A DNA stretch of 64,000 nucleotides, taken from Brettanomyces bruxellensis (taxonomy: Eukaryota; Ascomycota; Pichiomycetes; Pichiales; Pichiaceae). How positions within the stretch are numbered: the stretch's first letter is position 1; each line of letters starts with the position of its first letter. Made by a program: the position numbers and the translations under genes. This document shows positions 49,563 to 62,647 of this stretch, piece after piece. Below the pieces are notes generated by a model. It was not told where the DNA came from, ran no database searches, and was given only the letters and a program-made list of their open reading frames with translations. The stretch lies in assembly GCF_011074885.1 (NCBI RefSeq), contig NC_054690.1:3725001-3789000 (forward strand), in the 5' to 3' direction.

Positions 49563-51188
49563 ATGAAAACGAGTGATGAATTTCGGCAGCAATTTATGCC
49601 TGATTTGGATTTAAATGGAGCTCAATTTTCGTCAGAGTGTGACAATTTGACGAGGAAGTCTGTATCCAATAATTCTGACAGTTCCGCAACTAGTACAATT
49701 ATTAATACCAATGGAGAAAGAGAACGAGCCATTTTTTCTGAGATCATGGGTTTACGAACTTCTCATTATTCTAATTTGGTACCTCTGGAAGCATCTGGAC
49801 TTGGACAACCGGCGATGCTTCCACATTTTCAACAGTCTTTACCAGAAACCAATACTATCAATCCGCCATCTTCTTTTTTCGGCTCACCGAGTGGGATTTT
49901 TGACAATCCATCAAATCTAGGTGAATTCCAAAATTTGACACAGCCACCTGCTAATCTTTCCGGCGGACAGTTTTCTATTCCAGGATCATTTGAATCTGAT
50001 GTTAAAAGTGAAAAAGGACAAAATCGACTAGATTCGACATTTGGACTCCAGTCATTGGATGAAATCAATGAACCAATGCATAAAAAGCGGAGGATGATCA
50101 TGGATAACAGCGCTGATAATATTGCTCGTAGTACAACGGATGAAAAAAACTTTTCAATCAACAAGTCAACTTTGAGTCCGAAAGAGATTCTTTTTGAAGG
50201 CAAGCATAAACTCCTAACGTTGAAATTGACGAATGAAAAGCAGGATAAATATCTTGTCGATTCCTCCGGTAATATCGTGGACTTTCGTGTTGCTGGTTCT
50301 CTTTTTGGTGGGTTTTCATATGAGGGAACTGGAGCAGGTAAGGAAAACTTTGCGAAAATACCTATTATATGCTACCGTAGAAACTACATAATTCTTGACA
50401 TTTGTTTAGGAGCATCTGAATGTCCTAAATTTGTATTATTCAAGGATGGAAGCAAAAAGGAGTTGAAAAGTATAAAAGTTGAAATACAGGCAAAGTCAAG
50501 AGTTTCGAAGAATGGTATTCCGTTGGTCCTCTTTGATCCGATGATTTCGCATAACAGCAAGTTTGGAAAAGTACCAAAGACCATTATATCCGTACCTCAT
50601 GCTATGGTTCAACCTTTCAAGGGAAGACATATGATCATTTTTAATAGATTTCAGTTTAAGAGTGCTACACCAACTAACAGAAAAAAGACACCCGTCAATT
50701 ATTTTTATATTTCGGTCAAATTACATCTCGTTATTTCTTGCGATGGCGTTTCAAAGGGGATAGCTTATGGAGAAATGAGATCTAATGATATTTCAGTTAG
50801 GGGTAGAAGTCCTACATTTTACAACAAGCGGTATGATATTTCGATTTTAAAGGAAGTTTCGGATTTTTCTTGGGATAGTTTATATTGCATACCTTTGGTC
50901 GAACATGGGAAAATGCAGCTCCATAAAAGAGAGAAAGATGCCTCTGGTGTTAATATTACATGTATAGGAATGAGTACATCTAATAAATGTGATAACAAAA
51001 AGCTCAGGGCAAAATACAAATACATACCAATAAGTTCTTCTTATTATTTGCCTCCCATTCGGCCTTATTACTTGCCTCATAGTGCTGCACATAGGGAAGG
51101 GAAGAATGATCACCTGAACATGAGAGAATTCGCAAATGCAAGCAAATATAATTTTTTTATTAAAAAGACCAGTGATCCTGTTGTTTAA
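49563..51188 (+). CDS. RON1: Ndt80/PhoG-type transcription factor, RON1-like regulator of GlcNAc use
   Basis: A 541-residue protein with a disordered Ser/Asn/Pro-rich N-terminal half and an Ndt80-type immunoglobulin-fold DNA-binding domain at about residues 215-440. Family hallmarks are NRFQFKSATPTNRKK (about 359-374) and SVRGRSPTFYNKR (about 411-423). The Ndt80 relative Ron1 is required for GlcNAc catabolism in filamentous fungi and has been linked to it in Candida (established knowledge). Position at the head of a complete GlcNAc gene cluster makes RON1 much more likely than the meiotic regulator NDT80. It is convergent with DAC1, 93 bp away. All key residues of the fold seem present and the frame is intact. 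Confidence 0.85.
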   Translation: MKTSDEFRQQFMPDLDLNGAQFSSECDNLTRKSVSNNSDSSATSTIINTNGERERAIFSEIMGLRTSHYSNLVPLEASGLGQPAMLPHFQQSLPETNTINPPSSFFGSPSGIFDNPSNLGEFQNLTQPPANLSGGQFSIPGSFESDVKSEKGQNRLDSTFGLQSLDEINEPMHKKRRMIMDNSADNIARSTTDEKNFSINKSTLSPKEILFEGKHKLLTLKLTNEKQDKYLVDSSGNIVDFRVAGSLFGGFSYEGTGAGKENFAKIPIICYRRNYIILDICLGASECPKFVLFKDGSKKELKSIKVEIQAKSRVSKNGIPLVLFDPMISHNSKFGKVPKTIISVPHAMVQPFKGRHMIIFNRFQFKSATPTNRKKTPVNYFYISVKLHLVISCDGVSKGIAYGEMRSNDISVRGRSPTFYNKRYDISILKEVSDFSWDSLYCIPLVEHGKMQLHKREKDASGVNITCIGMSTSNKCDNKKLRAKYKYIPISSSYYLPPIRPYYLPHSAAHREGKNDHLNMREFANASKYNFFIKKTSDPVV

Positions 51189-51281
51189 AGTTCTTACTAA
51201 GTCTTGCAGAGAAGCATAAAATATTGATTTTTATGTTCATTAATGTCATATCTATAGCAATTTCAATTTTATATGTGTAAT

Positions 51282-52463
51282 CTAAATGCTACCCGAGCTA
51301 TACACGATGTTTCCCATCTTATAAACCTGTTTCACGTTTCCATCTTTGTCAATAACACAAAGATCAGCATCGTACCCTTCCTTTAAAAAGCCTTTATGAT
51401 CATCAACATGAACTGACCTTGCTGGGTGATTAGTTACACATTTCACAGCTTCTGCAAGGCTAGTATTAGTCCATTTCATCAAGTTCCTCATGCACTGTGC
51501 CTGATCTGTGACTGATCCAGCTATTGTATCAGTACCCTTCACTTTCAAAGAACGGCCTTTTTTGACCAAGTAGCGGCCTTCCCATGGGTATTCTCCATCA
51601 GGCAATCCAATTGTATTTTGTGCATCTGTGACAAGACAGCACCTATCTTTGTTGGCATTGTAGATAATATTGATGTACGTTGGGTGAATATGGACACCAT
51701 CAGAAATTAAACCAAAGTATGGGCATAGCCGCTCGTCCGCCAATCCTTCCAATCCGATCGGACCAGGATTTCTATGATGTGGTTGAGGCATTGCATCAAA
51801 AATATGTGTTATCATAGTTGCGCCTCTATTGATTGCCTCCAAGCATTGTTCATATGTAGCCATTGTATGGCCAATTGAGAATATAATATTCCGTCCTGTA
51901 ATTTCCGGAATAAGAGAATTAACTCCATCTAATTCGGGTGCCGCTGTAATAATCTTTATATAATTGAGGTTTTCCTCGCATCCAAATGCTGAGTAAAGGT
52001 CTTCCTTAGTCTTCGGTCTACAGAAATAATTCTCATCATGGCAGCCCTTTTTAATAGTAGAAATTATAGGACCCTCGCAATGTGAACCCAAGCTTTCAGT
52101 TCTATCCTTCTTTTCTTCTGCCTTCAAAAGCGGAAGTACATGCATACATACATCATCCGTGAATCGGATCACTGTGGGGCAAATTGATGTCGTTCCGGTT
52201 TTGATTAGCTCCTTCATACATTTGTTGTAACCCTTGGTATACTCCTCTTCGGATGAATATTCTGAGAAGTCAAATCCATAGCATCCATTTATTTGAATGT
52301 CTATAAATCCTGGGGTTAATATCAATCCATGAAGATCAATAACCTCATCAACTTTTTTGACGGCCCCCACTATCTGTCCTTTCGTTGTACAGATGTATAA
52401 ATCTTTGCAACCAATTTTACCTTCGTCGCAAAGTTGACAGTTTGTAAATCTGATTATTGCCAT
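51282..52463 (-). CDS. DAC1: N-acetylglucosamine-6-phosphate deacetylase
   Basis: It removes acetate from GlcNAc-6-phosphate to give glucosamine-6-phosphate, the second step of GlcNAc catabolism (also called NAG2). The 393-residue amidohydrolase has PGFIDIQINGCYGFDF (51-66). The metal ligands are Glu130 in HCEGP, His199 in SIGHT and His220 in THIFDAM. The substrate-side segments are HHRNPGPIG and DGVHIHP (255-261), and the catalytic Asp280 is in LVTDAQ. These positions line up closely with the bacterial NagA residues. The usual HLEGPF is HCEGPI here. It shares a 651-bp divergent promoter with NGS1. Confidence 0.95.
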   Translation of the reverse strand: MAIIRFTNCQLCDEGKIGCKDLYICTTKGQIVGAVKKVDEVIDLHGLILTPGFIDIQINGCYGFDFSEYSSEEEYTKGYNKCMKELIKTGTTSICPTVIRFTDDVCMHVLPLLKAEEKKDRTESLGSHCEGPIISTIKKGCHDENYFCRPKTKEDLYSAFGCEENLNYIKIITAAPELDGVNSLIPEITGRNIIFSIGHTMATYEQCLEAINRGATMITHIFDAMPQPHHRNPGPIGLEGLADERLCPYFGLISDGVHIHPTYINIIYNANKDRCCLVTDAQNTIGLPDGEYPWEGRYLVKKGRSLKVKGTDTIAGSVTDQAQCMRNLMKWTNTSLAEAVKCVTNHPARSVHVDDHKGFLKEGYDADLCVIDKDGNVKQVYKMGNIVYSSGSI

Positions 52464-53114
52464 TTTTTAATTTTTTAATTAACTGGAGATGAGCAACTAC
52501 TGTTCGCTGCTATCTCTATTTCAAAAACTGAAAGGGTAAAAATTAACATAACGATTAATGTGATTATATATACTTTTTGAAAATTCTAAAAAATTGATGA
52601 TTTATAGTAATTGTGGTATCGATCCTATTATTAATATCATTTTATCGCAGGCATTCTGGATCACCAATTCAAACATGGTAGTATTTTGAGGCTGTGTACT
52701 AGGTGTAGTGTAACCATTCAAGAAGTTCGTTACATCAAAAAAAAGAAGTTTTAAAGGCCTAAATGGAAATATTCCGATGATAAGTAAAAAAAAAAAAAAA
52801 AAAAAAAGTGGGAGAGAGGAAAAAACTGCCGTAAAATTAAAGGAGAGTAAAAAAAAGTTTGGATCATTTTGTGTACGCGCAGATGATTTGCTATACCTTT
52901 AGTATTCGCAACGCAGTAAATGTATTGTTTATCTTATATTTCATCGTTAATTATAGGTTTAAGAGTAAAGCAGGTAATATAATTAAGGTGGATGTGGGTG
53001 AATATGTTTATCATGTTGCAATTACATTTAACACAATACAACATTTGATAATTTTTTTAGGATACAAATTAATGACAGTAGATCGAAAACACTTTTAACA
53101 GAAACAATTTGACA
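52464..53114. promoter_or_regulatory. Divergent promoter of DAC1 and NGS1
   Basis: Holds ATGTAAC in reverse at 52729-52735, a related GTGTAAC at 52708-52714, GATAAG at 52779-52784 and an A run of about 19 bases at 52788-52806. The frame at 52859-53098 is not believed. Confidence 0.5.
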
Positions 53115-56100
53115 ATGAATGCTGATCCCACAAAGAATAATCATACTTTAACATCTTCAAATACAATATCCACAAAGGTTGAGATGGAACCTTCCGATGT
53201 GACAGATACAGTAGGAAAGATGCTGATAGCTGGTTTTGAAGGTTGCGAGTTAAAGCCTGGATCGCAGGCGGAGAAGTTGATCCGGCAATATAGAGTTCAT
53301 TCATTTATCTTAGGAACTAAAAACTTTCGTAATGTTTTACAAATGAGGCAGCTTATACAATCCCTTCAAAATCTGGCTGAATCAGAACACTATGAGTATC
53401 CTTTACTTTTGGCAGTAGATCAGGAGCTTGGATGTTGCAACTCTATGTACGATGACAAATTTTTAACGCAGTTTCCCGGATCAATGGGTTTGGGTGCAAC
53501 TGGAAATATGGATTTAATCTACAAAGTTGGAAGAGCTGCAGGTACGGAACTTCGATCCATTGGCTTTAACCTGTATATGGGACCGGTTCTTGATGTCGTT
53601 TCAAGCATGGCAAATCAGCTTATAGGAATACGATCGTTCGGCTTTACAGCAGAAGATGTTACAAAATGCGCAGAAGCATTTGCTAGAGGTCTTAAAAGTT
53701 CTGGTATGACTATCTGTGCTAAGCATTTTCCCGGTCTTGGATCATCGTATGTTGATAATGTTCTAGAGCTACCGATGATGCTTGATACAATGGCACAACT
53801 AAAGGCTCGCCATATCATACCTTTCAAGAAACTTATTGCTGATGGACTTGTGGATGCCATTCATGCTAGTGGTGTAGCAGTTCCAAATATTGCCCCAAAT
53901 GAAATTCATGCATGCCTCTCGCCAAAGATAATTAAGGATTTACTTCGAGATGAGTGTCACTTTGATGGTCTTGCAATTTCGGAGTGCCTTGAACTCGAAG
54001 CCTTGTGCAAAAACATTGGTCTTGGACAAGGTGTAGCTTTATCTATTCTTTATGCTGGTTGTGATATAGTGATGATTTGCAATGACTTTTCTTATCAAAT
54101 TGAAGCTCTGTCGGCTTTACATCAGGCGTATGTGTCTGGGAACCACAAAAGATCATTTAGCGAGGCTATAAGAAGAATAAATCATGTTTTGTCTAAATTA
54201 ACTTGGCCAATACCTCATTTACTTTCAAGGAAAATGATGTCCATTCATCATACGTTGTCCGTACAGGCATATCAGAAGTCGATAACGTTGGTTCGAGATG
54301 ATCAGGAGGCTATTCCAATTAGTCGCTATTTTGTGCCAGAGGAAGAGAATAACGTTCTTGTTTTGACTCCCCTTCTTACGGAAATAGATCATGCCAAGGA
54401 TCATAAGTTTGATGGGGTGAAAGGAAGTGGAACAAAATTATTTCCGGAAGAAACTGTATTTAGAAGTTTTGGTGAGAGTTTGGCAAATTATGATTCTACA
54501 TTGAACTACACAGTTTTGCATACGTCCTACACGGCGAACGGACTTACAAGTGCGCATGAGGCTTTAATTGATAGTTCGAAGGTTATTATACTGTTCTGTG
54601 CTGAGGCAAGTAGAAATATGTTCCAAATTGGAGTTGCGAAGTATATTAGTCTGCTCTGTGGTGGATACAGAAAACTGGATGGTTTTCTAAAGAAACCCCT
54701 TATTATCGTTGCAGTGACATCTTCATACGATTTCCTTTACCATCGTGGTATAGCCCCAACTTATTTATGCACCTTTGATTATACGGAAAGTGCTTTGAGT
54801 AACATTCCAGCTGTACTTTTTGGAGATTTAAATCCCGGAGGTAAACTTCCTGGATGTAATGATGCTGTGCAAAGAAATGGAGAGGGTATACCAAGTAGCA
54901 GCCTCATGGAGGCTGGAAATTCGAAAAATATGTCACTAAGAATGATATTAAATCAGGATGTATTACCTGACTCACTTTCTGAAAGAGAAATTAATAATAG
55001 TGAAGACAAGGTAATGTTGTCACAGTTAACCCCTGTGTATCCCCTAGAAACTACTAAAGTTACTAATGAAGAAGAACCACAAAAGCAACAAACTTTTCCT
55101 AGTAAACCTTGGCTGGTGGAGAATTTTGATATCTCTAGGGATTTTAGAAGTCTGATATTACTTTTAAAAAATTCTGGGGCTTCTGATTTGCAAAATACTG
55201 TAGATAAGGTTTTTATTGAAAGGTTAAAAAAGTTTTTGGATGAAACTAGGGCGTATTCGCATCATTTTGTGGTTCGAAATTCTACCCTAAATCTTCTGCT
55301 AGGGGTAATTTTTACGTGGGTTGATCGGAACTCCAGCAATGGAAGAATTTTATATGTGATAGTTGACAAAACTAAAAGGAGGCAATCTATAGCTAGTGTT
55401 TTGCATCAACATGCAATCACGAATCTTAAAATGGAAATGGGTTGCAAGAATATCATTTTGGGTTCTGATTTCCCTCTCTTTAATTTCTTTAAGCCCAATA
55501 TCTGTGAGGAATTATATCAAAATTGGGGAGAGATAGGGATTCGTCATCAAATAAGTAGCTGTGCCTTACAGATTCTTCAATTTACCAAGTCAATGAAATG
55601 GTGGAATAGCATAAATAAGCCTATTAGGAGATATATCCTGTCGGTTCGAATGGATACTTGGCGTTTAATTGATAACTTGATCAAGCAAATGAAACTTCTG
55701 GGAATTAAGCTTTGCATTGCTGAGAATTTAAGTGATATCATCTTACTGGTCCAAGGGAGTAATATGGAAGAAGCAAACCAGTTTTCCAATTTGTCCGAAC
55801 TATACATGATGGCCTTCAAATGCATTGAGGATGAGGAGAGAAGAAGAACGAAAAATACATTTGTTCTAAAGTTAGTAGCAAGCAGCAGTCAGAAGCCAAT
55901 AGGATCGATTATATTGTATGATGCAAAATCCAAGTTAGTAAATTGGCTTCCTTTCCTATCTTATGTTCCGTCTAATAGTTGTGGAGTGACATTTTTAACA
56001 GGAAGTTTTGTTGATTCAGATTATGGAGATCTTAGGCCGATGTTAAAGATGGGCTTGATATGCACAGCTGTGTCGTTTGCAAAGCAGTTAAAATCTGAAA

Positions 56101-56231
56101 TGGTTATGCTAGATGGATGTCAGTGTAATGAGATTGTGAAGCTGCAACAATGTGGATTTCAAGTATTTAGAGAATACCTTTCTATGCTAAGCTTAAAAAA
56201 AAGTTCGGAGTTTAATATTAATAATTGTTAA
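53115..56231 (+). CDS. NGS1: GlcNAc sensor/transducer: GH3-like domain fused to GNAT acetyltransferase
   Basis: A 1,038-residue protein with the layout of C. albicans Ngs1, which binds GlcNAc through its GH3 domain and turns on GlcNAc genes by histone acetylation. Residues about 30-370 are a NagZ-type GH3 barrel (LAVDQELGC, GPVLDVV, KHFPGLG at 203-209), and 380-600 a GH3 C-terminal fold. A GNAT domain with VDKTKRRQSIASVL (R755-R756-Q757) and KNIILGSDFP follows at about 690-830, and a degenerate second GNAT-like part runs to the end. In NagZ the dyad reads D-S-H; here it is Asp214-Asn215-Val216, so the His is gone. The nucleophile Asp of the ITDD motif is Glu290 in AISECLE. Catalysis therefore looks lost and ligand binding retained (inference). 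The first ATG in frame is at 53115. Confidence 0.88.
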   Translation: MNADPTKNNHTLTSSNTISTKVEMEPSDVTDTVGKMLIAGFEGCELKPGSQAEKLIRQYRVHSFILGTKNFRNVLQMRQLIQSLQNLAESEHYEYPLLLAVDQELGCCNSMYDDKFLTQFPGSMGLGATGNMDLIYKVGRAAGTELRSIGFNLYMGPVLDVVSSMANQLIGIRSFGFTAEDVTKCAEAFARGLKSSGMTICAKHFPGLGSSYVDNVLELPMMLDTMAQLKARHIIPFKKLIADGLVDAIHASGVAVPNIAPNEIHACLSPKIIKDLLRDECHFDGLAISECLELEALCKNIGLGQGVALSILYAGCDIVMICNDFSYQIEALSALHQAYVSGNHKRSFSEAIRRINHVLSKLTWPIPHLLSRKMMSIHHTLSVQAYQKSITLVRDDQEAIPISRYFVPEEENNVLVLTPLLTEIDHAKDHKFDGVKGSGTKLFPEETVFRSFGESLANYDSTLNYTVLHTSYTANGLTSAHEALIDSSKVIILFCAEASRNMFQIGVAKYISLLCGGYRKLDGFLKKPLIIVAVTSSYDFLYHRGIAPTYLCTFDYTESALSNIPAVLFGDLNPGGKLPGCNDAVQRNGEGIPSSSLMEAGNSKNMSLRMILNQDVLPDSLSEREINNSEDKVMLSQLTPVYPLETTKVTNEEEPQKQQTFPSKPWLVENFDISRDFRSLILLLKNSGASDLQNTVDKVFIERLKKFLDETRAYSHHFVVRNSTLNLLLGVIFTWVDRNSSNGRILYVIVDKTKRRQSIASVLHQHAITNLKMEMGCKNIILGSDFPLFNFFKPNICEELYQNWGEIGIRHQISSCALQILQFTKSMKWWNSINKPIRRYILSVRMDTWRLIDNLIKQMKLLGIKLCIAENLSDIILLVQGSNMEEANQFSNLSELYMMAFKCIEDEERRRTKNTFVLKLVASSSQKPIGSIILYDAKSKLVNWLPFLSYVPSNSCGVTFLTGSFVDSDYGDLRPMLKMGLICTAVSFAKQLKSEMVMLDGCQCNEIVKLQQCGFQVFREYLSMLSLKKSSEFNINNC

Positions 56232-56572
56232 ACGTTACATTTAGGTCCTAATTTTTATCTTATTAAATACGGTTTGACAAGAAAGTAGATTGAAAATGTA
56301 ACTTCCGGGAGGGGGGGAAGAAAAAAAAAAAAAAAGATAAGCAGAATGTAACATTACGTAGGAGTCCCCATTGCTGAGAGCATTAGCACATTGTATATTC
56401 TTTAAAGTGAACTCTTTCTGAAGTACATGTTCAAGGAGAAAGGGATATTTTTCTTGCTCATGATCTACTTTCATCAACGACCGACTTTCTCTTAACATTA
56501 GATTCATACTCTACTAGTTTATGAGCGAAGTCACACACTTCATACTACGTGTGAGTAATATCAATAAGGCAA
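56232..56572. promoter_or_regulatory. NAG1 promoter and leader
   Basis: Three ATGTAAC copies (56234-56240 reverse, 56296-56302, 56346-56352) and a GATAAG (56336-56341) stand beside a G-run and an A-run. An ATG at 56521 starts an 18-codon leader frame that would end, after splicing, at a TGA overlapping the NAG1 start. The frame at 56241-56507 minus is not believed. Confidence 0.5.
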
Positions 56573-57377
56573 ATGTAAGTATTATTAGATCTTTTTCTAG
56601 AACATAGAAGCCACTTTACTAACATTTAATAGGAGAATTGAACTATACAGCTCGCCGGAGGAGGCTTCAACTGCCGTTGCCGATCATATTGCTTCCTTAA
56701 TTAGAGCATTTCACCCAACAGAAAAGCGCCCATTTATCCTTGGTCTTCCAACAGGTTCTTCGCCATTAAAGGTTTATGCAAGGCTTATTACCCTTTATCA
56801 TAACAATAAGGTTGATTTCTCGAATGTTGTCAGTTTCAATATGGATGAATATTACCGTCTTCCGCCAACGGATTCTCGATCATATCATCACTTCATGTAT
56901 ACGAACTTTTTCAATCATGTGAATTTTAAACCAGAGAATATCAATATTCTAGATGGAATGGCGAATAGCTGGGAGATCGAATGTCAAAATTATGAAGAAA
57001 AGATCAAGTCTTATGGGAGGATTAATTTCTTCCTAGGAGGTATGGGTCCTGAGGGACATTTAGCGTTCAATGAATCTGGTTCTGATAGGACAACAAAAAC
57101 AAGGCGTATCTCTCTAGTTGATTCCACAATTAAGGCCAATTCTCGTTTTTTTGAAAATGACCAGAAAAAGGTCCCAAAAGCAGCCCTTACTGTTGGTATA
57201 TCAACAATTTTAGATAATTCGGATGAGGTCTGTGTTGTTGTTTTCGGAAAGAACAAGCATTGGGCTTTAATGAACACCTTGACTAGGAAACCAACTTCCG
57301 TCGTTCCATCAACATTCCTAAAGGATCACAACAATAGTGTAATTGTTGCTGATTATGCAGCAATCGATGAAGACTAG
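56573..57377 (+). CDS. NAG1: Glucosamine-6-phosphate deaminase, start codon split by an intron
   Basis: It converts glucosamine-6-phosphate to fructose-6-phosphate and ammonia, the last step of GlcNAc catabolism. The gene model is AT (56573-56574) spliced to G at 56633, giving ATG AGA ATT GAA and a 248-residue protein, exactly the length of C. albicans Nag1. Landmarks are LGLPTGSSPLKVY (37-49), the general-base Asp72 in FNMDEY, YHHFMYTNFFNH (85-96), and Glu141-x-His143 with Glu148 in GPEGHLAFNE. Without the intron there is no upstream in-frame ATG before residue 71, and the unspliced sequence reads ATG TAA at the donor. It is convergent with NGT1. Confidence 0.93.
56575..56632 (+). other. Spliceosomal intron inside the NAG1 start codon (58 nt)
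   Basis: Donor GTAAGTAT at 56575, branch site TACTAAC at 56617-56623, acceptor TTTAATAG ending at 56632. Removing it joins AT to GAGAATTG and creates the initiator codon. All three signals are canonical for yeasts. Confidence 0.85.
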
Positions 57378-58343
57378 ATTAGTACTTAGTCACGCATATT
57401 AATGGCATTATTTTGTTCCTGTGGAATATTTATTTCAATTTGTTGAATGGTACTTTATTACACGAGTCAAAAATTCAGAGCCTGTTCAATCATTTGCTTT
57501 TCTTATAAGCACGATCTAATCTCCTTGGATTTCTGTGTAATTTTTTAATCTTTTTTTATGAGGTGAACATGTAACCTAAGCTTTTTTATCTTATTATATT
57601 TTCTTTCCAATAAAGTTTGGTTTTCTTGCTGTCAAGTATATTCATATATAGTATCAGACATTGTTAAGTGTATTTTTCTGAGCACATTAATTGATTAATT
57701 AATTATTCTGAAGGTAATGATAAAGTTTGAAAGAAACTATAGATTGTAGTTGAATCTTTCTAGCATTCAAAAAACAATAAATTGCAGATTTATCTTACGT
57801 CTTTAGTGTCGGATTTGGCGGATTTTTAGAAATTCGAATGAGAGCACGATTTTTAAGAATTGAAGCGACACACTTGTAAAAAAGGATATCTGAGTTTTGC
57901 TAAAACGATACTACGTAACAAGTACTTCCTTTTTCTTGAAAGAGTTTAAGGAAGACAAGCTAATATATATTTTTAATTTAATATTGATTGTATTATAAGT
58001 TGACGGTATTGTCCATACTGCTATCATTATCGATTATTATTCGTGTCACTGAGTTTTGTAACTTCACACACCAGGAATCGGTATCTGGCTTGTCGACATA
58101 CCATCCTTACACGAATTAATTAGCCTCATTCTAAATTCGGGTACCATTCACTAAAATGTCCCATGATTTTAATTAAGAAAAGAAATCTGCGCGCTCTAAT
58201 GAAAAGTTGCTTACGATTAAATAAATATGTTTCAAAATCTTTCATTTTCCTAGCTAAGACAAATTTACGTTTTTTTTTGTCAAGAATCCAGTTCTTGAAC
58301 TCCGGTATAGAAAATAAAAATAAAAACTAGGTAAATCATATAA
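57378..58343. other. NAG1/NGT1 convergent spacer
   Basis: 966 bp of AT-rich sequence without a credible gene. One ATGTAAC lies at 57569-57575. It has no repeat tract like those in the convergent spacers of the housekeeping block. Confidence 0.5.
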
Positions 58344-59867
58344 TTAAGTTCTTTCCTTGGTTGTTATAGTCTTCTGGATATTTAATTCATCAACTAATTC
58401 TTGGCTAACACCCTTTATGTCTTTCAAATCCTTCTCAATTTCTGTTGTGTTTTCAACCTTCAAATACAAAATCGGAAAAGCAACGACCAAAGAGCCAGCT
58501 AATAAACCCCATGTCGTTCCGTACATTGTTTTATACGGTTTTTCATTGAGGTCCATCGACCAAGCTATAGCCGAGCCTGCACTTTGAAGACCCTTATACC
58601 ACCCTGCGTATATAGCACCCTTTCTTGCAGAATTTGTGAGTGCACCCATGATCCAGTAGGTATAACACTGCCAAATGGCATCATAAAATCCAAAGAACAT
58701 GTATAAAAACATTGGACCTATATATCTTCCTTCCTTAAAATCGATAAGTGACACAGTTTGATTTCTAGTTCGGCCCTTCACCCATAGCATTCCAATTCCC
58801 CATATAACTTGCGTTAAAATAAACAATGAAACCCATCCAAAAATTCCACGTGTTCGCCTCGATAGTTTTTTCAAGTCAAGAAGAATTCCAATAACATAAG
58901 AACCCACCATTTGCATAAGCCAAAAGAGTAAGGAGTTCAAAGATCTCGTCCGAACCGTAAAGGCAATTGCGAAGTCTGACTGTTCATAGGTATAAAAGAA
59001 GTTGGATGCAAAAAACATTGGGAAAAGAAGTAAAATCCATGGTTCCTTGACCAAAAGTTTTACTAGTTCAGTCAGTTCGCTCACAATATTTGGATTCTTT
59101 TGATATATAACCTTAGTCCCATCCGTTCTCCTAACATTCTTTGTAGGAAGCATGAAGAGGGCAATAATGGCACCAAGGATTGTGAGAATAAGGAAAGCAA
59201 TATAAGAACCATCAGTCACATCGCCACTTGAATTATTCATATTTTGTGCTAATGGGATCAAAGATCCAATAACTCCACCTAAATTGAATATGGCCCAAAA
59301 GATAAACATGTATGTTCCCTTCTTTGCCTCGGTAGGATAAGATATATTGCATGTGGATGTTGCTGCCCAAAGTGTGGCAGCAGTTAATCCCAACCATGCT
59401 CCGGCAAAAATTATGAAACCTTCATTTCCGGTATGCTTGTAACAAAGAAAAGAGCCAATATAAATCGAGTAGCCGGTACCACCAAAAGCAAGAGACCACC
59501 TAACACCAAATGTGTTAACAATTGTTCCAGAGAAAAATCCAACCGTTGCAAAGCAAGAGTACAATGCAATATTAGCCTTGTTTGAAAGTGTTGCAGACGA
59601 CAATCCAGCACCTCCCATACCAGATAATGCGTTGAACATTCCCGGACATAAAAAGCAAACAAAAGAAACCATCAAAATCTGAGAGAGTCCACTTGAAAAG
59701 GGAAATAACTTTCCAAATGGCTTTTTGTTGTACCATTTGGCAGGATCATAGTCAGAATCATTGTTTTCTTCTTCTCTGGTACTGTCATGACTGGATGCAG
59801 AGCTAGTAACCAAATCCACATTCGTACCTGGCGGAGTTTTTGTTTCGTTTTCTTCAGTGATCGACAT
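58344..59867 (-). CDS. NGT1: N-acetylglucosamine transporter, UNC93/NGT1-type MFS
   Basis: A 507-residue, 11-12-segment membrane protein of the UNC93-like (DUF895) branch, to which fungal GlcNAc:proton symporters of the Ngt1 type belong, as I recall. Signatures are VSFVCFLCPGMFNALSGMGGAG in TM1 region, NTFGVRWSLAFGGTGYSIYIGS, AGAWLGLTAATLWAATST, the SYPTEAKKGTYMFIFWAIFN stretch, GIFGWVSLF and a tail with AGWYKGLQSAGSAIAWSMD. The acidic N-terminus is cytosolic. The location between the deaminase and the kinase supports GlcNAc import at the plasma membrane. Other UNC93-like proteins have unknown substrates, so specificity rests on context. Confidence 0.85.
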   Translation of the reverse strand: MSITEENETKTPPGTNVDLVTSSASSHDSTREEENNDSDYDPAKWYNKKPFGKLFPFSSGLSQILMVSFVCFLCPGMFNALSGMGGAGLSSATLSNKANIALYSCFATVGFFSGTIVNTFGVRWSLAFGGTGYSIYIGSFLCYKHTGNEGFIIFAGAWLGLTAATLWAATSTCNISYPTEAKKGTYMFIFWAIFNLGGVIGSLIPLAQNMNNSSGDVTDGSYIAFLILTILGAIIALFMLPTKNVRRTDGTKVIYQKNPNIVSELTELVKLLVKEPWILLLFPMFFASNFFYTYEQSDFAIAFTVRTRSLNSLLFWLMQMVGSYVIGILLDLKKLSRRTRGIFGWVSLFILTQVIWGIGMLWVKGRTRNQTVSLIDFKEGRYIGPMFLYMFFGFYDAIWQCYTYWIMGALTNSARKGAIYAGWYKGLQSAGSAIAWSMDLNEKPYKTMYGTTWGLLAGSLVVAFPILYLKVENTTEIEKDLKDIKGVSQELVDELNIQKTITTKERT

Positions 59868-61135
59868 CTTGTAATTTGTTTATCGTCTGGTTGATAGGTA
59901 ACCAAGTAAATTCTTTCCCTTACTATAACTATCGATCCATCCTTACAATCGTGAGCAAAGATTTTGATGATTGTCAGGTATATTTATACTAATTTATCGC
60001 TTGCTTATCCAATGATAGATAGGGTATATTCCTTGAGCATCCTTATTCCTATCTGAAAAAATTTATATATTGTATTGTCCTTTTCCCTAATCATAGAAAT
60101 TTTCTCTTCTTTAATTTTTTTTCGCTTATCTCTACTCTGAAAAAAAAATGTAACAAACGACTAGTATACGATTATAGATGGAAACAGTACATTCACACCG
60201 AATTTTTATTATAAATCATGCGTCAAATAACGTTACATTGCAGGGAAACAACTGCCACTGGTAAGGATTTAATAATTCAAAAAAATATTTATTTTGTGGT
60301 GAAAGTATCATAGGTGTCTTTTTATTTTGTGCCGTACATTTATGCGGTTAATATCGGACAAAATTTGCTAAGAACTCACACCATTGCAAATTGCAACACT
60401 TTCTCTGATGTGAAGCTAATTGGAAATCGAAAAAGCGCTTGAAAATAATTTGTACCTTTGGATTGGAACGACTAAAAATCTCACCAATTCAAATCAAGAT
60501 ATTTTCATTCCCTAATTTACAGCTGCTAGTAGGCCAAAGAAGGGATGTTTCTAAAAAATGATTTGTAGTCCCATTAAATGTGGTGATTGTAACGATTAAA
60601 TTTGATAAGAACAAAAGCTGGTTTCGAAATGCTCCATGTAATACGGGAAACTTGTGTAAATGTTACAGTATTTTGTAAGCTCAGTTGTGATCCCATTTCT
60701 TATCGCTAGATCAATTTTAAGTCGTGCGCAAGAAAAAAAAAAATAGCGATTGTACTGTATGAATTAAAATCAAAAAAAAAGAGGAACTAAATTTTGAGAC
60801 ACCTTAATTAATTACATTTTTCTGTTTATTGAATAAATGTAACCTTTATACTACTGATAAGGTTTATGCAAGAAATGATTATGATCGCTTTTAATCTGAT
60901 GTCAGTGAAGTGTCGCATTACATTTTCGTTACACTGATAAAAAAAATATTACTTTTTACTCAATACTATTGCTTTAAATTTGTGGAATACAGATATTCTA
61001 CTCAATTGGATATGGTTCTGTAAGTAAAAATTAGAATTTTCTATTGCTCATTATTTATAAAGTGATCGATTTAACTTCACTTGTCAATTTTCCCGTTCAT
61101 CCACGGCCTTCAGAATCTCGAATATATCCCAAAGT
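59868..61135. promoter_or_regulatory. Divergent promoter of NGT1 and NAG5
   Basis: 1,268 bp without a gene. ATGTAAC occurs at 60148-60154, 60232-60238 (reverse) and 60837-60843. The shorter core TGTAAC or GTTACA occurs at 60588, 60662 and 60928. GATAAG lies at 60004, 60125, 60699 (all reverse) and 60856. This is the densest set of both words in the window. Confidence 0.5.
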
Positions 61136-62647
61136 ATGTCTCATGTTCAAATAATGCAAAAGCGTATATGTGAGAAGGCCATAGAGAGTTCTGATAGCGT
61201 TTCGGAGGCGTTATTCGAAGAATCTGAATTGTCATCATGCTCTAATCCATCTTCTTCCATTGAAGATGATGCACAACCTCAAAATTCATTATCAGAAGCG
61301 CTGAAGAGCATTACGGAAAGTTTCAGTGAGAAGCATGTATCAAGTTTTGTCAACAAGCTATATGGAGAGCTCTTACAAGCCTTCACAACAAATTCTGATA
61401 GAACATTAATTAAGACGAAGGCACCCATTCCAACAACGAACGAAAAAGGTCGATTTCTCGTCATTGACTTAGGAGGTTCTACGTTTAAGGTATTTGTTGT
61501 TGACCTCTTGGGTGATTGCAAAGCTGCAATTGTTTCTGGAAAGGTTTGGAATATTGAAAATGACAAGAAGACTATCGATCGAGGATTTTTCCGATTGATG
61601 TGTGATCACATTCAAGAGTTATTAAATACTGGAACTTATTTTGATATCACACGTAAGATACCAACGGCAATTTCGTGGAGCTTCCCTGTCGTGCAAACAA
61701 GGCCAAATAATGGATGTATAAGTGACGTGACAAAGGGATATACACTAGCCGAAGACATTAAAGGTCAGGATTTGGGAATTATCTTTAGTAAGATGATGAT
61801 GGTTAACAATAATGTACAACTTGAAGTTGACTCGATTGTTAACGATGCAGTTTCTGTTTATTTAGCCGGTTTGTATGTGCACAAATGTCATCTTGGCCTT
61901 GTTTTAGGAACCGGTCTCAATGCTTCTTTTCCTATAAAAAGTCATCTTTATAACAGTGAATTGTCATTCTTTGGCACATCCTTCTTGCCGTCACTAACAC
62001 ATAATTTGATAGATGAAACTATGTGTCCAGATGTTGCATTCATAGCCCCAGATAATTATATATCTTCCAAAAGTCCGGTTTACCAGCCTCTAGAGTACAT
62101 GTGTGCTGGGAGGTATCTAGGGGAAATGTTTCGGCTTGGGTTGGTTATTGGAGCTTTAAATCGTGAAATATTTCAAGATCAGATTACGCAATTCAATCGT
62201 AATGAAATTCTTGTCACTCCATATGGTTTAAGTAGTAAAATAATCTCCGAGCTTTCAGAAGCCGATTATTCAATTGCCTGTGGTATCTTCAAGATAAAAT
62301 TCGGATTGATTTTAACATCAAATGATTACACAATGATTAATAGTTTAATTGAAGTCCTTACTAATAGAGCAGCCATTATCCTATCGGCTTCTATTTTGGC
62401 ATGCATGAAATTTATCTCTAAATTGTCGTCAAAAAAAGACGTAAATTTACGAGAGCAATGTCGTTTAGTATATGTGGGCTCCCTTTTACATCACTACAAG
62501 AAATATCTGACAAAGGTTCAATCAATACTTGATAGATATCATATTGATGTCGGTCTTCAAAAATTTGATATGAAACACATGGACGATTCCAGTATTATCG
62601 GTGCCGCGGTTTCTGCTGCTACGTTTGTCACTATGGAGCATATGTGA
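61136..62647 (+). CDS. NAG5: N-acetylglucosamine kinase (hexokinase family)
   Basis: It phosphorylates imported GlcNAc at C6, the first step (also called HXK1 in C. albicans, 493 residues). The 503-residue protein is a divergent hexokinase with phosphate motif IDLGGSTFKV (110-119), SWSFPVVQ (180-187) in place of FSFP, the catalytic Asp237 in VNDAV, GTGLNASFP (258-266) and AAVSAATF near the end. The first 55 residues are acidic, Ser-rich and disordered. The sugar-binding residues differ from those of GLK1 in this same window, as expected for the GlcNAc-specific branch. It is divergent from NGT1. Confidence 0.92.
   Translation: MSHVQIMQKRICEKAIESSDSVSEALFEESELSSCSNPSSSIEDDAQPQNSLSEALKSITESFSEKHVSSFVNKLYGELLQAFTTNSDRTLIKTKAPIPTTNEKGRFLVIDLGGSTFKVFVVDLLGDCKAAIVSGKVWNIENDKKTIDRGFFRLMCDHIQELLNTGTYFDITRKIPTAISWSFPVVQTRPNNGCISDVTKGYTLAEDIKGQDLGIIFSKMMMVNNNVQLEVDSIVNDAVSVYLAGLYVHKCHLGLVLGTGLNASFPIKSHLYNSELSFFGTSFLPSLTHNLIDETMCPDVAFIAPDNYISSKSPVYQPLEYMCAGRYLGEMFRLGLVIGALNREIFQDQITQFNRNEILVTPYGLSSKIISELSEADYSIACGIFKIKFGLILTSNDYTMINSLIEVLTNRAAIILSASILACMKFISKLSSKKDVNLREQCRLVYVGSLLHHYKKYLTKVQSILDRYHIDVGLQKFDMKHMDDSSIIGAAVSAATFVTMEHM

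Follow-up and report, generated by a model that had tools for sequence, protein, structure and literature searches.

A start codon that exists only after splicing raises the question whether expression of the gene is controlled at this step or whether an ordinary intron happens to lie there. In Brettanomyces bruxellensis, the gene concerned is NAG1, located on the plus strand at 56573-57377 of the window, i.e. the whole stretch of 64,000 nucleotides analysed here. The gene is part of a GlcNAc-type catabolic cluster of six genes in about 13 kb (49563-62647), together with an NDT80-type regulator (49563-51188), an N-acetylglucosamine-6-phosphate deacetylase (51282-52463, minus strand), a GH3 hydrolase (53115-56231), an UNC-93/MFS-type transporter (58344-59867, minus strand) and a hexokinase (61136-62647). 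Missed 5' exons aside, the five other genes are open frames from an ATG. According to a previous report, five of the six cluster genes are missing in Pichia pastoris as well as in 14 Saccharomycetaceae (PMC4950302). In the GH3 protein (1038 aa), the Pfam match was confined to a segment close to the N-terminus (residues 43-358, counting from 53109), the C-terminal half having none. The GC content of the window (1-64000) falls unevenly, from 48% in the first 4 kb to 33% in the last 4 kb.

The anatomy of the split codon was established by direct reading of the sequence and by script. The coding part of exon 1 consists of AT (56573-56574), followed by a phase 2 intron of 58 nt (56575-56632) and by the G of the initiator codon at 56633, all on the plus strand. 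The intron opens with GTAAGTAT and contains a 5' splice site GTAAGT (56575-56580), a branch-point motif TACTAAC (56617-56623) and, ending 9 nt beyond this motif, a 3' splice site TAG (56630-56632). Yeast-type spliceosomal introns follow a consensus made of a GTRNGT donor, a TACTAAC branch site and a YAG acceptor; the NAG1 intron belongs to this type, and its size is within the range of the genome. In the 60 nt that follow the branch motif there are two YAG acceptors, of which only TAG at 56630-56632 completes an ATG. Joining AT to exon 2 (56633-57377) yields an open reading frame of 248 aa plus stop (MRIELYSSPEEAS..., N-terminus MRIELYSS). Unspliced RNA reads ATG TAA at this place and its first in-frame ATG is codon 71 (56841-56843); upstream of exon 2, its frame contains a stop at 56598 and no ATG after it. 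The intron described in the earlier note, as well as the reading of the unspliced form, were therefore found exactly as claimed, and it follows from the sequence that a full-length enzyme would need splicing in this species. Additionally, an ATG at 56521 opens an upstream frame (56521-56641, plus strand) which, in spliced RNA (56521-56574 joined to 56633-56641), forms a uORF of 20 codons (MSEVTHFILRVSNINKANEN) that runs over the NAG1 ATG in another frame. It could lower NAG1 translation, provided that transcription starts upstream of that ATG.

The spliced product was assigned to the glucosamine-6-phosphate deaminases (NagB/NAG1) by a whole-length match exceeding the curated cut-off of TIGR00502 (nagB; 291 bits for a cut-off of 236.9). 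The match covered residues 1-245, with residue 1 aligned on profile position 1, and PF01182 was matched as well (72.6, cut-off 27). A search of the whole genome (13.14 Mb, 9 contigs) found no other deaminase gene. Relatives were collected from two homology searches (best 120 of 2117 and best 120 of 3787), giving 132 proteins, of which 128 possessed an LPTGSSP-type anchor and could be compared; the four proteins lacking this anchor were left out. Among the matches listed, the closest relative was the database protein P0001 (85% identity), and the nearest named one came from Brettanomyces naardenensis (76%). A Met was located exactly in the column of the splice-created one in 89 of the 128 anchored relatives listed, and 34 others started a few residues away, leaving five exceptions, P0001 to P0005. 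Homology thus requires this Met: the residue created by the predicted splice is, from the aligned proteins, that of the family. With a donor within the initiator codon and a joined ATG that corresponds to the start of the family, the intron has the features expected of a start-codon intron.

Pattern counts were performed on the genome to estimate whether such motifs occur more often than by chance. The combination GTAAGT-N16-46-TACTAAC, to which the NAG1 intron belongs, was found 96 times, compared with 33 for the reversed control. No such excess was observed once the string had to be preceded by AT: ATGTAAGT was found 7 times (4 in the control), and ATGT[A/G][A/C/T]GT...TACTAAC 11 times in one search and 5 in another (11 and 7 in the controls, respectively). 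As the AT-prefixed string is no commoner than its control, it proves nothing by itself; what counts is that it coincides with the NAG1 gene. Genome-wide, 16 candidate sites of the form AT|GT[A/G][A/C/T]GT...TACTAAC were retained (18 in reversed controls), and only in NAG1 was the AT|G split accompanied by both a YAG acceptor and a long open reading frame. Site L007 was considered as a second start-codon intron, since it would give 120 aa, but its acceptor is GAG and it was not counted; no start-codon intron other than that of NAG1 held up among the 16 sites of this pattern search. Two other donor classes displayed no excess in association with TACTAAC (GTATGT, 28 for 29 in the control; GTTAGT, 11 for 32), although these counts may be lower bounds.

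The position of the intron was also compared with that of other introns of the same genome. Fifty-two of 92 regions around GTAAGT...TACTAAC sites were readable and yielded 56 candidate introns. Twenty-nine of them, NAG1 included, gave a spliced frame reaching at least 150 nt into exon 2 and longer than the unspliced one; this census is sequence-based, with neither RNA support nor randomised control, and some of the 29 may be false. The NAG1 intron was at the short end of the observed ranges, yet inside them, both for its length (54-87 nt) and for its branch-to-acceptor distance (5-43 nt). The coding part of exon 1 did not exceed 50 nt in 21 of the 29 introns and 3 nt in three of them. It measured 3 to 47 nt in 20 of the 28 introns besides NAG1 and more in the remaining eight. 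Only that of NAG1 lay inside the ATG itself, so that ATG-splitting introns appear to be rare in this genome. Retention brought a stop inside the intron in 24 cases out of 29 and would therefore ruin most of the corresponding products, whether or not the ATG is split: an intron located just 3' of the ATG gates as fully as one within it. The earlier assertion that splicing gates the deaminase absolutely is accordingly true of this sequence, but it does not make NAG1 special, and it may fail in its closest relative, as discussed below.

If the intron is inherited, traces of it may be expected in related proteins. In P0001, P0004 and P0005 (three of the 128 anchored relatives), the Met column is occupied by an Arg preceded by an extension, the junctions being ...IFTNDFNR|KLELY, ...NTNNVAPFYSHNR|KLQLF and ...VLTIRPFFYTHYR|KLQLF, respectively. 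This Arg fits an AGG codon (AG|G), and the preceding Asn, Asn and Tyr allow a YAG acceptor. Each extension can also encode TACTAAC, a compatibility found in 3.0, 3.9 and 4.9%, respectively, of random stretches of the same length from the same protein family. The motif would be located in different reading frames in P0004 and P0005, which is what a non-coding motif should show, and at a distance from the acceptor of 29 nt in the former and 30 nt in the latter; in the window and in P0001, this distance is 9-11 nt. P0004 and P0005 are 95% identical sisters and do not therefore represent independent cases. When the extension of P0001 was back-translated onto the window intron, its score was reached by only 3 of 2000 peptide shuffles and 2 of 2000 DNA shuffles. 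The fit was weak for P0004 (73 of 2000 in both types of shuffles) and absent for P0005 (857 peptide and 614 DNA shuffles of 2000), for which, as for P0004, it is the putative 3' motifs that carry the case. The three proteins are best read as ORF calls that traverse an intron located where that of NAG1 lies, most firmly so for P0001. That these insertions are open was rejected as a mark of selection, because ORF callers report only open ones. DNA encoding P0001 was sought in viral contigs and none was found.

Other relatives showed no such trace. P0002, an annotated protein of B. naardenensis, has a Glu in the Met column, and its extension fitted the window intron no better than chance (335 peptide and 665 DNA shuffles of 2000), while P0003 starts two codons later than this column. 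On account of these two proteins, the intron is not shown throughout Brettanomyces. P0096 was considered as a fourth case with Arg in the Met column and set aside, as its start, MRLQ, merely reflects a shift of MR by one residue. Gene models P0118 (Ambrosiozyma), P0133 and P0134 (Saccharomycodes) begin exactly at the equivalent of the Met of codon 71. Their true starts are perhaps hidden, either by an intron in the 5' region or by the end of a contig; as any such intron or contig end would have this effect, they were not counted as further cases. With apparent traces at the same position in three relatives, the NAG1 intron is probably shared with some related yeasts and not a one-off. The check proposed earlier, the same position in relatives, gave apparent protein-level traces in P0001, P0004 and P0005 and none in P0002 and P0003. 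The suggestion of a simply drifted 5' intron comes close, except that the intron is probably shared.

P0001 deserves separate consideration. The similarity of this protein to the window begins at the split ATG itself, where it reads M-L-V-L-L and the window M-stop-V-L-L. If its first Met corresponds to the split ATG, the insertion is 51 nt long, in frame and free of stops, and the donor slot consists of ATG, a Leu codon and GTN. The Leu codon in second position means that the donor there cannot be GTAAGT; as the GTTAGT class is not enriched in the genome of the window, a donor slot with a Leu codon would be uncommon in that genome. Either the species carrying P0001 splices from another donor, possibly GTTAGT-like, or it translates the segment. 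Whichever applies, unspliced RNA could yield an enzyme with 17 extra residues and, the insertion being open and in frame, gating may not be absolute in that relative. Residues 1-18 of P0001 may also be viewed as a possible exonisation or as the mark of a weak donor. One may speculate that a splice switch is evolving at the NAG1 start codon, with production depending wholly on splicing here, maybe in response to GlcNAc or growth state, and with the gate being removed in P0001. Such a scenario is unlikely, but if true, the NAG1/P0001 pair would catch a gate in the course of removal.

Two explanations would dispense with the 58-nt intron altogether. An upstream non-coding exon, or another transcription start, might supply the start codon, the segment considered here not being the intron used. 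A GTGAGT at 56551 could indeed serve as donor for such an arrangement, but joined to the NAG1 acceptor it leads to a frame that stops at once, and the interval separating the neighbouring gene from the start holds five other ATGs, none of which reads into NAG1, whether spliced or unspliced. Since, moreover, the AT|G junction falls precisely on the family Met, this explanation is very unlikely. It is scarcely credible that NAG1 is a decaying copy, the start of which was broken by mutation or by an assembly error and in which the likeness to an intron is due to chance. In its favour, the unspliced frame is broken at its start and the AT-GT...TACTAAC string is as frequent as its control; donor, branch site and acceptor nevertheless match the enriched class of this genome at the sole place where the Met of the family is restored, no defect interrupts the other 247 codons, and relatives display apparent traces of the same intron.

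A true control point would imply regulated splicing, responding to GlcNAc or growth state, with unspliced RNA kept in the nucleus or destroyed. The dependence of the full-length enzyme on splicing, as asserted by the earlier note, the lack of another deaminase gene in the genome, the seeming conservation of the intron in some relatives and the five other cluster frames, open from an ATG (missed 5' exons aside), are all compatible with this idea. However, donor and branch site agree with the consensus and are not weak, and the apparently open, in-frame insertion of P0001 indicates that the gate would not have been kept there. The leader fold was not more stable than those of shuffled sequences (z = +0.71; 149 of 200 shuffles folded at least as well), and no Rfam family was matched in 53000-58500, so that nothing in the 5' sequence of NAG1 appears to point to a switch. 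In Yarrowia, start-codon introns combine the highest splicing efficiency with the lowest expression variability, according to PMC13309789. Furthermore, the corresponding Trichoderma cluster is under the transcription factor RON1, as stated in PMC4950302, and an NDT80-type gene is present in the window. Regulated splicing is consequently improbable here.

NAG1 is, with high probability, interrupted by an ordinary inherited spliceosomal intron lying inside the initiator codon, most likely constitutively spliced, with control exerted at transcription. U1 would pair with GTAAGT and U2 with TACTAAC, TAG being used as acceptor, and the joined ATG would start a normal glucosamine-6-phosphate deaminase of 248 aa; RNA left unspliced would end at ATG TAA and give no full-length enzyme. 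The intron would have been inherited from an ancestor common to some related yeasts and would have kept a location at the 5' end, like most introns sampled in this genome. We infer that splicing takes place, that it is efficient and that it is not regulated, the pathway most likely being controlled at transcription. The apparent sharing of the intron by some relatives and the existence of similar introns in Yarrowia make it look like an old, ordinary intron and not like a special switch.

These observations have consequences for annotation. ORF-based methods misplace such starts, either at codon 71 (a 178-aa ORF in the window, and three database proteins beginning at the equivalent Met) or by reading the intron as an N-terminal extension. 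NAG1 also provides a probable case of a start-codon intron in a yeast other than Yarrowia. With P0001, in which the same intron is apparently open and in frame, it forms a pair that could be used to test whether expression is affected by placing an intron within the start codon.

Searches of the literature on NAG1 or deaminases and introns did not reveal this start-codon intron in titles or abstracts, subscription papers and supplements aside. The closest known system is that of Yarrowia lipolytica. Published accounts mention 47 genes in which the A of the ATG makes up the whole first coding exon (PMC2911113), 42 introns whose donor immediately follows one of the three letters of the initiator ATG, which are those with the highest splicing efficiency and the least variable expression (PMC13309789), and an early stop upon retention of up to 93% of introns (PMC2911113). 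The introns in question resemble that of NAG1 in being spliceosomal, in interrupting the initiator codon or lying immediately next to it, and in commonly leading to an early stop when retained. They belong, however, to a different lineage: a branch-acceptor spacing of 1 nt and a median intron length of 196 nt are reported for Yarrowia (PMC13309789), whereas NAG1 is split as AT|G by 58 nt, with TACTAAC 9 nt from the acceptor. In yeasts and fungi with few introns, these show a 5' bias and likewise lie close to the start codon, being inherited and, in the course of time, lost (PMC4202332 and PMC8476143), but that of NAG1 differs in being inside the codon. Candida albicans NAG1 (P0090), also a glucosamine-6-phosphate deaminase, is described as intron-less in PMC4950302, and its protein starts directly with MRQ. 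The same paper reports that in filamentous fungi the deaminase gene lies beside those of a deacetylase, a hexokinase, a GH3 hydrolase and an NDT80-type regulator, and that expression of the Trichoderma GlcNAc cluster is controlled by RON1, a factor of the NDT80 type. The NAG1 intron is real, probably old and constitutively spliced, and happens to lie inside the start codon.
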